DNA of 24,108 bases from a virus. The notes under the pieces were generated by a model that saw nothing but the letters and a program-made list of their open reading frames with translations, made no database searches and was not told the origin of the DNA. Location: the IMG/VR virus record IMGVR_UViG_3300037189_012063, positions 1 to 24,108 of that record; one strand, 5' to 3'. This document shows, piece after piece, positions 3,741-23,157 of this stretch; the first letter of the stretch is position 1, and each line of letters opens with the position of its first letter. The position numbers and the translations under genes are program-made.

Positions 3741-4192
3741 TGAAGCCCCGCGAGATTGCTGCCCTGCGACAGAAGCGGTCCTCCGGCGGCGGAGGGGGAA
3801 CCACCTACACCGCTCCTACTCGCCAAAGCGTCACCATCACGACGTCGAGCCTGGCAACCGGCGCTACCTGGACCGGCACCGTCGCGCTGGCAAAGGCTTA
3901 CCGGCTCTACTCTATCAGCACTAACCGGGCTTGCCGCACACGCGTCTACACCGATGCGAGCGCCCGGTCCGCCGACGCCTCGCGTCCCGTGGGAACCGAC
4001 CCCACCGATGGCGCTGGCCTGGTGCTGGAGTTCGTCTCTACAGCCGCTCTCCTGTCAGCCACCTTGTCTCCGACGGTAGATGGCTTCAGCGGTGAGTCTC
4101 CCGCGACATCGAGCATCCCGGTCTCCATTACTAACAACGGCGCGACTGGTGCCGTTGAGGTGACCCTGACTTTCCTGGCAACGGAGGTATAG
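3740..4192 (+). CDS. Putative virion surface/decoration protein, 150 aa
   Basis: The GTG at 3740 shares its G with the upstream TAG stop, which implies translational coupling. Residues 1-13 are basic (MKPREIAALRQKR). Then comes a flexible linker with five glycines at about 15-20, then roughly 125 residues rich in Thr/Ser/Ala/Val with alternating hydrophobics, typical of a beta-sandwich. A basic tail, Gly linker and beta domain suggest a protein anchored to the particle with an exposed domain, such as a head decoration or fibre. This is inference from layout; no family was recognised. Confidence 0.7.
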   Translation: MKPREIAALRQKRSSGGGGGTTYTAPTRQSVTITTSSLATGATWTGTVALAKAYRLYSISTNRACRTRVYTDASARSADASRPVGTDPTDGAGLVLEFVSTAALLSATLSPTVDGFSGESPATSSIPVSITNNGATGAVEVTLTFLATEV

Positions 4193-10245: not shown

Positions 10246-10503
10246 CTATCTCCTCTTCAGCCCAGCGGTGTCTGGCGTCGTGCGCAACGGCGTCAGTTCC
10301 ATCTGGGCTCGAGGGCGCGACGGCAGCATGGTGGGTGGAGCGGACGCCACCAGCGCCGTCAGCGTCTTTGAGTGCGTATCGCACAGATCTATTTGAGCGG
10401 CGGTCTTGTCCCCGTCTCGCCAGATATGCCAGCGCGTGGCCGGACGAGAACAGGACGACTTTCCGCCTGGGTTATCGCAGGTAAGCACCATCTTTTCAGC
10501 CAT
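10246..10503 (-). CDS. Small putative zinc-binding protein downstream of integrase, 85 aa
   Basis: The start overlaps the integrase stop by eight bases (ATGGCTGA), so it is translationally coupled. Residues 1-45 contain 'CDNPGG', a second Cys in 'SSC', and 'DLCDTHSKTL'. That gives Cys/Cys/Cys/His ligands in the pattern of a short zinc finger; similar CxxxG...LCDxH modules are common in actinobacterial small proteins. The rest is Pro/Arg-rich and probably disordered. Coupling to the integrase suggests a directionality factor or regulatory partner, but no winged-helix excisionase motif is visible. Function unknown. Confidence 0.65.
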   Translation of the reverse strand: MAEKMVLTCDNPGGKSSCSRPATRWHIWRDGDKTAAQIDLCDTHSKTLTALVASAPPTMLPSRPRAQMELTPLRTTPDTAGLKRR

Positions 10504-11536
10504 CGGCCTGCTCCTTTCCTCGGGTGATGCTTACCACGTTTGGCGCGTCCGCTTCTATATCGGCAGTCACCAAACTCGGGAACATCCGCTGCCCCGCGAT
10601 GTCCTCATTACGCAGGCGGCGGTCCAAATCCAGGCCGAGGTATATCTCCGTATTGAGGCTCGTGGCATGCCCCAGCATCGACTGCACCCTGCGGAGCGCA
10701 CCGTCGTAGCCGTTCTGCGCGAGTTGGTCGAACAGCGCACGGGCACCACTACGTCGCAGGGTGTGCTCCCCCTCCTTGTCCGTGGGGTAGCCAGCGTTGG
10801 CGAGGATGCGCTGAATGACGATGTGCATCTTGGTGATGTTGCGCGTCGGGTCAATCGTGCCGGTGCCGGGCATCAGCCGGTTGGTCTCCGGGTCCCGCTC
10901 CTGGGTAGAGATGATGCGGGGCGGAATGAGGTAGTGCTCGGGCTCGATGGCGACCTGCTGCGAATACCAGGTGAGGTAGTTCCGCAGGTAGGTATCGAGT
11001 TCCGCGCTAATTGGCATCGTGTCCCACTGGCGGGTCTTGCGGCGGTAGATGTCAATCTCGCCCTCGTCCAGGCGAATGTGCTTCATCTGAATGCCCTGCT
11101 GCTCGCTGCTGCGGAGGAACAAAAACAATCCTGTCGCAAGGCTGATGGTCTCCGTGGGGTAGGTGCAGGCGGCGAACAGCCGGGGCCACTCCTCCACGGG
11201 GATACGGGTGCGGGGGGTATTGGGGACCGTCAGGTTCCGCCACCCCACGGTCGGGTCCTCGCCCCGGTCCAGGTAGCGGCGCGTCCGGCACCACTCAAAG
11301 AAGGTCCGCATCTGGGACAACTTCACGTTCCGCGTCTTGGCCCCCCACGCGTGGGCGGCGAACACCTGGTCGATGTGCTGGGGCGTGAGGTTCTCGACGT
11401 AAATGTCCCCAATGTCCGTTTTGATCATTCCCAGCAGGGAGACCCTGCCGCGCACCGTTCCCGGCGCCATCTCCCTCGCGACCATGTGCTCGCGATACTC
11501 CTGGATAGCCGCGCTCAATCTGATTTTGATTGTCAC
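10496..11536 (-). CDS. int: Tyrosine integrase (site-specific recombinase), 346 aa
   Basis: The protein integrates phage DNA at attP/attB and, with accessory factors, can excise it. The catalytic set is complete: Arg142 (LFLRSSEQQGI), Lys167 (RRKTRQWDTMPI), His258 and Arg261 (EHTLRRSGARALF), His290 (MLGHATSLN) and Tyr299 (TEIYLGL). Residues about 5-95 resemble the SAM-like core-binding domain (SAAIQEYREHM..APGTVRGR). Start is the GTG at 11536, with a GGGGGGAG ribosome site just upstream on the minus strand. HxLR replaces the usual HxLR-H context normally. The gene is expressed away from the HTH regulator, and the two share a control region. The 390-residue plus-strand frame across it is a shadow. 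Confidence 0.95.
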   Translation of the reverse strand: MTIKIRLSAAIQEYREHMVAREMAPGTVRGRVSLLGMIKTDIGDIYVENLTPQHIDQVFAAHAWGAKTRNVKLSQMRTFFEWCRTRRYLDRGEDPTVGWRNLTVPNTPRTRIPVEEWPRLFAACTYPTETISLATGLFLFLRSSEQQGIQMKHIRLDEGEIDIYRRKTRQWDTMPISAELDTYLRNYLTWYSQQVAIEPEHYLIPPRIISTQERDPETNRLMPGTGTIDPTRNITKMHIVIQRILANAGYPTDKEGEHTLRRSGARALFDQLAQNGYDGALRRVQSMLGHATSLNTEIYLGLDLDRRLRNEDIAGQRMFPSLVTADIEADAPNVVSITRGKEQADG

Positions 11537-11608: not shown

Positions 11609-11760
11609 CCCCTCTGTGGCATATAGATGAATTCAGCCATAGGGAATTTTGGGCCTCTCTATGAGGGAAATTATCACGCTCATCTGGGGGTTTTGGCCCC
11701 ACCTGTGGATAACTCCCTCACGATTAGGTTCGCAACCAGCACCGAACATCGCACGAGATC

Positions 11761-11795
11761 TTGTAAGTGAGCCCGACACTGGTAGCCTGAATAAA
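11761..11795 (+). promoter_or_regulatory. Leaderless promoter of the HTH regulator gene
   Basis: TTGTAA (11761-11766) and TAGCCT (11783-11788) are separated by 16 bases. The A of the ATG at 11795 lies seven bases past the -10 box, where transcription would begin. No Shine-Dalgarno sequence precedes the ATG. This geometry is that of leaderless mRNAs, common in actinobacteria. Confidence 0.6.
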
Positions 11796-12250
11796 TGGCC
11801 CGACCCCGAGTGCTCCCGTCCAACGCCGAATTGACCAAGATGGTCGAGGACGGTTGGAGCCACGCCGACATCGCTGCACACGTGGAGAAGACTACGGGGC
11901 ACAAGATCTCCCGCTCCGCCGTGTCCGCCGCCCTGTCCCGAGCGGGCCTGACGAAGGCCACCCCCAGGTATAAGAAGGAGATCCCCTGGCGCGTAGGTGA
12001 GGCTCACCTAACTGCCTACCCCGTGCGGATGCTCCGCCTCCTGGGCCGCAAGCGCAGCGGCCAGCCCCTGACGGAGGAGGAAGAGGACCGGCTCCGGTCC
12101 TGGATGGACCAACTCGCGGAGTGGGACGCGGTGGTGGCCTACTCCCCCTCGGCGGGGTTCCTGTATGTCGCAGCGGACGAGGTAGGCGACTGGGAGGACG
12201 GCATCCCCATTAGGCATCGGACTATCACCGACGACGAGTTGATGAAATAG
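11795..12250 (+). CDS. Helix-turn-helix regulator, probable immunity repressor or Cro-like, 151 aa
   Basis: Residues about 8-52 form a helix-turn-helix-like DNA-binding region (NAELTKMVEDGWSHADIAA, then KISRSAVSAALSRAGL). The middle is basic and ends around residue 70; the C-terminal half is acidic (LTEEEEDRL...WMDQLAEWDAVV) and may dimerise. It is transcribed divergently from the integrase, the usual place for a lysogeny-controlling repressor. I recall similar 'RPR..NAEL..M...G..H..IA' proteins in actinophages labelled simply HTH proteins. Whether it is the repressor or an early activator is not decided by sequence. Confidence 0.7.
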   Translation: MARPRVLPSNAELTKMVEDGWSHADIAAHVEKTTGHKISRSAVSAALSRAGLTKATPRYKKEIPWRVGEAHLTAYPVRMLRLLGRKRSGQPLTEEEEDRLRSWMDQLAEWDAVVAYSPSAGFLYVAADEVGDWEDGIPIRHRTITDDELMK

Positions 12251-12336
12251 CGCTGGAAATCAACGGCTTTTGCCACGGTCCAGCCATTCGCAATTCGAAA
12301 CCGTTAGGTGTCTATAAAAAACAAAAGCACTTACAT

Positions 12337-12423
12337 TGGCGAACGCCAAAAAGCGTTCGCCATACGTGAGACGCCTAAAGCGTCTCACAATGAAAAGACC
12401 GCTCATTAGGAGCGGTCTTTTCT
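12337..12423 (+). ncRNA. Candidate small structured RNA: three tandem hairpins
   Basis: Stem 1: TGGCGAACGC (12337-12346) with GCGTTCGCCA (12353-12362), loop CAAAAA. Stem 2: GTGAGACGC (12366-12374) with GCGTCTCAC (12380-12388), loop CTAAA. Stem 3: AAAAGACCGCTC (12393-12404) with GAGCGGTCTTTT (12410-12421), loop ATTAG. The stems are perfect, 9-12 bp, with 5-6-base loops and only 3-4 bases between them; the last is an intrinsic terminator. No open frame spans them. A short RNA beginning near 12325 would consist almost entirely of these hairpins. It could instead be just a reinforced terminator of the regulator gene. Confidence 0.5.
12393..12423 (+). terminator. Intrinsic terminator after the HTH regulator
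   Basis: A 12-bp perfect stem (arms 12393-12404 and 12410-12421) with a 5-base loop ends in TTTTCT. The A-run on its 5' side means it could also work for the minus strand. It is the third of three consecutive hairpins. Confidence 0.85.
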
Positions 12424-12573
12424 AATTGCGGTCAGTTGATTTTTTGCGACACAGACTTCCATCGCATGTTCCATTGCTTACTCCAACGCGTGTTCAGCCA
12501 CCGCAGAAACCAGTTGTTAGAGACCAGCGTGACAGAGGCACCGCGCCTCTGCGGCTAACCCAACGAGGTCGCT

Positions 12574-12732: not shown

Positions 12733-12863
12733 TGGCCCGCCACGACCAGCGCTGGACCGACCACAGCCTGCGTTGCTACCTGTGCCACGCCCAACTCGCT
12801 ACCTACACGGGCGTCCTCTGCTCGGACTGCCGCACTTCAGCCATCGCGGATCTTGGCCGTTAG
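12732..12863 (+). CDS. Micro-gene, 43-aa zinc-ribbon protein
   Basis: The ATG shares one base with the upstream TAA stop. The product has two CxxC knuckles, 'CYLC' and 'CSDC', about 15 residues apart, the pattern of a small zinc ribbon ('RCYLCHAQL...GVLCSDCRTSA'). The 4-Cys spacing and coupled start make it credible despite its size. It may bind nucleic acid or a host protein; no specific role can be given. Confidence 0.65.
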   Translation: MARHDQRWTDHSLRCYLCHAQLATYTGVLCSDCRTSAIADLGR

Positions 12864-12872
12864 AGAGCGACT

Positions 12873-16711: not shown

Positions 16712-17355
16712 GCAGCATCAAGGTCACGCCACGCCAGCGCGAACTGCTGGAACAGGCCACCACCGCATACCAGGCGACCGTCGCAGACGCCGCCGACTAC
16801 CTGCTCGGGCGAGGCATCACAGGCGAGGTAGCGAAGGAAGCACGGCTCGGCTACGTCCGCGAGCCCCTGCCCGGCCACGAGCCCTACAAGGGCCGTCTCG
16901 CCATTCCCTACCTCACCAAGACAGGCGTCATGGATATGCGCTTCCGGTGCGCCGACAGCCACGACTGCCAGCAGATGGGCCACCCCAAGTACCTGTCGCA
17001 GGCAGGCCACTCACCCCGCCTCTACAACGCCACCGCGTGGGAGCAGGCCGAGGACATCATCGCCATCACCGAAGGCGAGTTCGACGCCCTTGTTCTCACG
17101 CATCGGGTCGGCATTCCCGCGCTCGGCATCTCCGGCGTAGCGGCGTGGAAGACCTACTACCGCGCCGTGTTCGAGGACTTCGCAGAGGTACTGGTGTTTG
17201 GCGACGGAGACGACGCCGGACGGGACTGGGCGCGCCTCGTATGCATGGACCTCGACAACGCGCGCGCCGTTCATATGCCTTCCGGCCACGACGTCACCTC
17301 GTTCTTTATGGCCGAAGGCCCCACCACCGTCCTGGAGGTGGCCGGTGTCGTCTAA
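16708..17355 (+). CDS. Primase TOPRIM-domain protein, 215 aa
   Basis: The ATG at 16708 overlaps the zinc-domain stop (ATGA). Glu122/Glu124 in 'AITEGEFDALVL' and Asp166/Asp168/Asp169 in 'VLVFGDGDDAGRDWA' are the two acidic TOPRIM motifs. 'PSGHDVTSFF' near 191-200 matches the usual primase downstream motif. The N-terminal 100 residues have 'YLLGRGITGEVAKEARLGYV' and 'GRLAIPYLT', as in phage primase cores. It would synthesise RNA primers, with the zinc partner supplied in trans. With the nearby ATPase this gives a primase-helicase pair made of three polypeptides. Confidence 0.85.
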   Translation: MSSIKVTPRQRELLEQATTAYQATVADAADYLLGRGITGEVAKEARLGYVREPLPGHEPYKGRLAIPYLTKTGVMDMRFRCADSHDCQQMGHPKYLSQAGHSPRLYNATAWEQAEDIIAITEGEFDALVLTHRVGIPALGISGVAAWKTYYRAVFEDFAEVLVFGDGDDAGRDWARLVCMDLDNARAVHMPSGHDVTSFFMAEGPTTVLEVAGVV

Positions 17356-17432
17356 CCCGGCTACTTCCAGGTTTCAGCCACTCGGATTTTCAGTCGTTAG
17401 AGAGGGATCACCTACAGAAAGGGGGGATCAAA

Positions 17433-22310: not shown

Positions 22311-22529
22311 ATGCCGAATAACTACACCTTCATTTGGGCCGGACTCATCGGCGCTGCCGTCGCCACCGAGACCGTGGCACTCCTGGCCTATCCCGAAGCC
22401 ACCTTCACCCACCACGTGCGCTCCATCGCCAAGACGCATCCCCGACGCATCGCGCTCACCGCGTTCTTCGCATGGAGCGTCTATCACTTCGCCTACCCCG
22501 ACATCAGAAAAGGAAACCGTCATGTCTGA
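22311..22529 (+). CDS. Small membrane protein, 72 aa
   Basis: An N-terminal hydrophobic helix (about 7-27, FIWAGLIGAAVATETVALLAY) is followed by a basic loop (HHVRSIAKTHPRR). A second shorter hydrophobic stretch (about 46-60, IALTAFFAWSVYHFAYP) makes this a two-TM hairpin candidate. The ribosome site lies inside a hairpin immediately upstream. The stop overlaps the next gene by eight bases. Early phage membrane proteins of this size can affect superinfection or membrane state; no specific family recognised. Confidence 0.65.
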   Translation: MPNNYTFIWAGLIGAAVATETVALLAYPEATFTHHVRSIAKTHPRRIALTAFFAWSVYHFAYPDIRKGNRHV

Positions 22530-23157
22530 CACGCAGAGAGAGGAACACCTACTCATCACCAGCGACGAGTTCGCCCTGGCCGAGCGGACCGCGCGTCTCG
22601 TTGCCCCCAAGTGGAGCGGAGTCGATGTCGATGACGTCATCGCCGCCCTCTACCTGTGGCTCGTGGAGAACCACGGCTATGTCGTGGCCTACCGCAGCGA
22701 ACCCCACGGCACAGCCAAGTTAGTGACCGCCCTCACGCGCGAAGCCCACGCCGCCTGTGCGAAGGAATACCGGCACGCCCACCACCTGGCAGACCAGACC
22801 TGGTATTCCGCGCAGCAACTCGAACGGTTGCTACCTCACGCCTGGGACGCTGCCTCCTGGCCGCAAGCCTCCGTCTATCACCACAGCGAGCACAACAGCA
22901 GCGCCACCGAGTCTGTCCTCGTCATGCTGGGGGACGTAGCGGCTGGCCTGGCTCGCCTGCCCGCAGAGGATCGCCGCCTCCTCGCTGCCCGCTACCGAGA
23001 CGACGCTTCTTACGCCGAAATCGCAACCGACCTGGGGATCAGTAGCGAAGCAGCGCGCAAGCGCTGCAGTCGGGCGCTAGACCGACTGCATCACCTCCTC
23101 GGCGGGGACAAGGTGGATCCCCCGAGCCGCTGGTCGGGTAGTCAGCCGGACGCGTAG
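22522..23157 (+). CDS. Sigma-factor-like / region-4 HTH transcription protein, 211 aa
   Basis: The ATG at 22522 overlaps the upstream stop by eight bases. The C-terminal 60 residues hold 'LARLPAEDRRLLAARYRDDASYAEIATDLGI' (split here for reading) and 'SEAARKRCSRALDRLHHLLGG', the helix-turn-helix of sigma region 4 that reads -35 elements. The N-terminal half ('VDVDDVIAALYLWLVENHG', 'LTREAHAACAKEYR') resembles region 2 only loosely. It may be an ECF-like factor or a sigma-like activator, perhaps switching to late genes. No anti-sigma gene was seen beside it. Confidence 0.7.
   Translation: MSDTQREEHLLITSDEFALAERTARLVAPKWSGVDVDDVIAALYLWLVENHGYVVAYRSEPHGTAKLVTALTREAHAACAKEYRHAHHLADQTWYSAQQLERLLPHAWDAASWPQASVYHHSEHNSSATESVLVMLGDVAAGLARLPAEDRRLLAARYRDDASYAEIATDLGISSEAARKRCSRALDRLHHLLGGDKVDPPSRWSGSQPDA

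Follow-up and report, generated by a model that had tools for sequence, protein, structure and literature searches.

The locus analysed here raises the question of what three perfect hairpins, set back to back between the immunity repressor gene and the early genes of a temperate phage, are for. The window, by which we mean the whole 24,108-nucleotide stretch (the 24-kb virus record IMGVR_UViG_3300037189_012063), is a temperate-phage contig that looks like DNA of a tailed temperate phage of Actinobacteria. Its genes include those for a major head protein, an endolysin and, on the minus strand, a tyrosine integrase (10496-11536), followed on the plus strand by an immunity repressor gene of the L5 gp71 / R4-phage kind (phrog_3929; 11795-12250). 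Past the repressor lie early genes encoding, among others, a DnaB-like helicase, a DNA polymerase exonuclease subunit, a methyltransferase and a sigma factor (22522-23157). The hairpins lie in the 322 nt that separate the repressor stop (12250) from the first early ORF (ATG at 12573), and the original prediction was correct in placing them in a phage, in the interval between a regulator and early genes. The immunity repressors of R4-type Streptomyces phages, whose annotations liken them to L5 gp71, are 34-50% relatives of the repressor found here, and the gene order in these phages is the same: endolysin, a reverse gene (in most phages), repressor, gap and early genes. No close DNA relative was found in the phage collection, which gave one chance match only, and a search of IMG/VR with the exact hairpin-1 pattern found no relatives.

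Structure of the hairpin array

Hairpin 1 (plus strand, 12337-12362; arms 12337-12346 and 12353-12362) has a stem of 10 bp, a CAAAAA loop and a folding energy of -17.6 kcal/mol, and hairpin 2 (plus strand, 12366-12388; arms 12366-12374 and 12380-12388) a stem of 9 bp, a CTAAA loop and an energy of -14.5 kcal/mol; neither is followed by a U-tract. Hairpin 3 (12392-12422; arms 12392-12404 and 12410-12422), with 13 bp, an ATTAG loop and -21.1 kcal/mol, is an A/T-flanked, terminator-like stem that could serve in both directions. All are perfect inverted repeats, as had been claimed from the sequence, and the stem lengths first given hold for hairpins 1 and 2, the third stem being 13 rather than 12 bp; the loops of 6, 5 and 5 bases fall in the range of 5-6 described, while the spacing, put at 3-4 bases, is 3 nt throughout (TAC, AAT). 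The T-run said to end the array is there as TCTTTTC, but most of it belongs to the 3' arm of stem 3 and just TAATT lies beyond, which is why a terminator-pattern scan of the window did not list hairpin 3; nor did it list the other two. All three stems form the stable G+C-rich hairpin expected of an intrinsic terminator.

The minimum free energy and centroid structures both contain the three hairpins, and the array folds at -66.2 kcal/mol against a shuffle mean of -29.7 (z = -10.6; none of 200 shuffles as low), the minus strand folding almost equally well. In simulated 24-kb sequences with matching dinucleotide content, the mean was 0.65 perfect hairpins of at least 9 bp, and adjacent pairs of such hairpins never arose in 40 simulations of the window. 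The GC content of 0.44-0.47, compared with about 0.6-0.7 in neighbouring genes, bears out the description of the segment as AT-richer than its surroundings. An Rfam search of the window gave nothing at the gathering score, the best sub-threshold match reaching 26.8 bits where 50 are required, and such matches fell mainly on the terminator-like hairpin 3. A 29-codon TTG-TAA frame seen by eye across all the hairpins (12336-12425) would encode a basic peptide; no ribosome site was seen and the frame was treated as chance. Further downstream, a 7-bp hairpin (CAGAGGCACCGCGCCTCTG) at 12533-12551, crossed by a 9-codon GTG-TAA frame also found by eye, lies in what is presumably the leader of the first early gene.

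Hairpins 1 and 2 are also perfect palindromes in the DNA, with similar AT-rich centres (ACGCCAAAAAGCGT and GACGCCTAAAGCGTC), and could in principle act only as DNA, either bound by the repressor or some other dimeric protein or belonging to an integration site. We give this reading very little credence. Neither arm recurs in the window beyond single-mismatch chance matches, and operator palindromes were rejected for want of extra arm copies there; the repeated words that look like operators in relatives are short and form no hairpins; and the hairpins were dismissed as attP because that site most likely lies between the integrase and the repressor. The interval between integrase and repressor contains TAGATGAAYTCAGCCATWGG in the window (about 11624-11645), in L119 (about 3865-3890) and in L145 (about 3775-3800), and a look-alike of a tRNA 3' end (GGGTTCAAGTCCCCCCTCGGACAC) in L120, L123, L125, L130, L040, L137 and L138; these are probably the attP cores for integration at two different kinds of site. 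Around the repressor and early genes of the closest repressor relatives, GCAACATGWCAC occurs in two to three copies where about 0.005 are expected (L135 at 1048, 1167 and 1997; L162 at 15931, 8994 and 8273; L163 at 14132 and 4295; L167 at 13971 and 13029) and is a candidate operator or stoperator. Another candidate operator, CGGCGTGTC(G), resembling the TGTC core of the L5 stoperators, is conserved in the gap at +156, +148, +167 and +202 past the repressor stop of L123, L125, L130 and L133, and in inverse orientation in L126. One relative, L164, carries several palindromes with the core CGTGTTTAAACGTG at 16993, 17596, 17911 and 18389, whose stems differ in part and are still paired.

The repressor-early gap in related phages

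Comparison of 42 repressor loci, the window included and a few of them near-identical, for which the nearer relatives were gathered through alignment searches, showed that a single terminator-like hairpin usually occupies the repressor-early gap. A hairpin of at least 8 bp lies within 200 nt of the repressor stop in 27 of the 42, compared with 15% of 1680 random 200-nt stretches of the same sequences, so that a terminator-like hairpin is what the gap normally contains and the window has an expanded version. Besides the R4-type phages examined, all six of which (phiHau3, R4, Tefunt, Omar, Triumph and Sentinel; Arquatrovirinae) have a single hairpin of 11-16 bp, gap hairpins are found in L120-L122, L123-L125, L130, L137, L140-L143, L145 and L148. 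The stem base of hairpin 3, AGACC...GGTCTTTT, recurs in the terminators of L123, L125 and L143, and in almost the same form in L130. Three hairpins occurred in none of the 1680 random stretches and, within the gap, only in the window phage and one group of relatives (L120-L122); other expanded gaps are those of L040, with two hairpins that both have the loop CCTTAAAG, and L145, with four, two of them merely 7 bp. Four of the closest repressor relatives, L119 and L134-L136, have no hairpin of at least 8 bp in the 200 nt that come after the stop, and the array is absent from the 350-360 nt examined after their repressors; L119 carries a small ORF after its repressor.

The R4-type phages share with the window the position between repressor and early genes, a homologous repressor and a strong perfect stem with a weak U-tract or none, several of their single hairpins lacking a clear U-tract as hairpins 1 and 2 do. 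Their one hairpin, however, starts 14-27 nt past the repressor stop, whereas the window has three, the first beginning 87 nt past it, and a promoter-like stretch lies between stop and array. A widespread type of terminator has been described that consists of hairpins spaced by less than 15 nt and does not require poly-U (PMC8355165), and the array resembles such clusters in its 3-nt gaps and its place downstream of a stop codon. Its stems are longer than the cluster averages of about 7-8 bp, and its 87-nt distance exceeds the 80 nt from the stop codon within which 98% of validated sites fall, a tendency rather than a strict rule (PMC8355165).

We put at roughly 55% the probability that the array is a termination and insulation region separating the repressor from the early lytic genes. 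Polymerase coming out of the repressor gene, and perhaps also from a weak promoter at about 12279-12318, would transcribe three strong hairpins in rapid succession. Hairpin 3, A/T-flanked and bidirectional, would be the main terminator, while hairpins 1 and 2, without U-tracts, may put further obstacles in the way of the polymerase and shield the repressor mRNA at its 3' end. In the prophage, transcription of the repressor gene would thereby be kept out of the early operon, which apparently has its own promoter-like elements downstream (12493 and 12836). What the sequences show is the gene context, the hairpins themselves and the presence of terminator-like hairpins in this gap in most relatives; termination, mRNA protection and direction of use are all inferred from them. 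In favour of insulation is the orientation of the repressor gene, which points into the early operon and would have to be separated from it in the prophage. Against a terminator array stand the distance from the stop, greater than for the hairpins of most relatives, the hairpin-free gaps of L119 and L134-L136, the failure of the terminator scan to list any of the three, and the L120 locus, where the unit shared with the window follows a separate terminator.

A promoter-like element and a unit shared with a second lineage

Upstream of the array, at 12279-12308 on the plus strand, lies a promoter-like sequence, TCCAGCCA-N16-GTTAGG, which is a degenerate copy of TTCAGCCA-N15-GTTAGA with two mismatches and a spacing of 16 rather than 15. 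A perfect TTCAGCCA-N15-GTTAGAGA element precedes the first early ORF (12493-12523, plus strand), and further perfect copies are found at 12836-12866 and 17373-17403, all three on the plus strand and upstream of a gene start; weaker copies lie at 12279 and 16307. Shuffled windows gave 0.0 perfect matches and 0.45 with up to two mismatches. The element may represent a phage promoter family, perhaps recognised by the phage sigma factor, or alternatively repressor stoperators; a promoter role is put conditionally because the stoperators of the L5 repressor show a similar distribution (PMC5712189). No copy with up to two mismatches was convincingly placed near the repressors of relatives, and the case for a promoter role therefore comes from the window itself. 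A promoter scan found no sigma-70 promoter. The left half of the element also occurs at 11632, where it is better explained as belonging to the word shared between integrase and repressor.

The TATAAA box described at 12313 is present and is the sole copy in the window on either strand. It lies within a 12-mer, GTCTATAAAAAA (12310-12321, plus strand), that has an exact match in L120-L122 and whose start precedes a 10-bp hairpin by 27 nt in the window and 25 nt in L120. No pair of shuffled sequences shared any 12-mer in 3000 shuffles, a test that used the best of about ten relatives, so that the true significance is somewhat lower. Its core, GTCTATAAAA, has no copy in any other fetched locus, and the spacer between 12-mer and hairpin is slightly alike in the two (shuffle fraction 0.03). 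If stem 1 and the L120 hairpin are homologous, six of the ten pairs have changed on both sides and all remain Watson-Crick, a comparison between two hairpins that were both selected for pairing. Compensatory changes in stems 1 and 2 had been proposed as support for an RNA: stem 1 may offer them in comparison with this one group, a covariation between two sequences, since the unit was found in a single other lineage, the three near-identical contigs that alone share the upstream element. Stem 2 cannot be aligned to that group, and neither hairpin 2 nor the loops show recognisable conservation. In L120 a separate terminator precedes the 12-mer and its two hairpins, which suggests that hairpins 1 and 2 form a unit of their own; past that unit no hairpin with a U-tract was found. 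From these two lineages, the 12-mer and the L120 hairpin would be the best evidence that hairpins 1 and 2 are more than repressor terminators.

Such a unit could be read as part of a separate small RNA, about 100-115 nt long, that would start near 12312-12325 from the promoter-like sequence at 12279-12318, carry the three hairpins and end at hairpin 3. It would be either a stable RNA regulator or a shortened equivalent of the abundant RNA made close to the promoter in L5-like phages. We regard this as possible and clearly less probable than termination and insulation, with which it overlaps, since the RNA could end at the same hairpin 3. The small RNA draws on the shared 12-mer and its spacing, the paired changes in stem 1, the degenerate element at 12279 and the precedent of L5-like mycobacteriophages, in which an early promoter that bears an operator yields an abundant Pleft-proximal non-coding RNA; this RNA is about 500 nt long, lies at the genome end and has no evident stem-loop terminator (PMC5712189). 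The likeness extends to a related kind of repressor and a non-coding stretch near early promoters; the candidate RNA of the window would differ in being at most about 110 nt long, beside the repressor gene, built of perfect hairpins and closed by a strong one. The small-RNA reading is weakened by the two-sequence covariation, the lack of recognisable conservation in hairpin 2 and the loops, the L120 unit that no U-tract hairpin follows and the lack of an Rfam family at threshold. The original suggestion of an sRNA or processed leader keeps the promoter-like element and the shared 12-mer and hairpin in its favour, and yields to a terminator region as the better fit to relatives, the closest of which lack the array. 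More doubtful still is the proposal that hairpins 1 and 2 with GTCTATAAAAAA constitute a distinct phage RNA unit, retained between repressor and early genes in two or more diverged lineages of actinobacteriophages; this would be a short structured RNA, perhaps transcribed with a phage-encoded sigma factor, that has a part in the lysis-lysogeny switch.

The same promoter-like sequence, the terminator-like hairpin ahead of the early genes and the position of the L120 unit past the repressor terminator and before an early gene would also accommodate an attenuated leader of the early operon, starting near 12312, with hairpin 3 as terminator and antitermination involving hairpins 1 and 2. This is quite unlikely: the perfect elements at 12493 and 12836 make such a leader unnecessary, no antitermination gene or site came to notice, and a literature search on HK022 put-type antitermination found nothing.

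If the array is the insulator that we favour, it would illustrate how temperate phages keep apart a repressor gene and the early operon into which that gene points, and would mark tandem hairpins lacking U-tracts as a recurrent feature of this site. A discrete RNA, should one be produced, would offer a compact parallel to the abundant and unexplained non-coding RNA found in L5-like phages.
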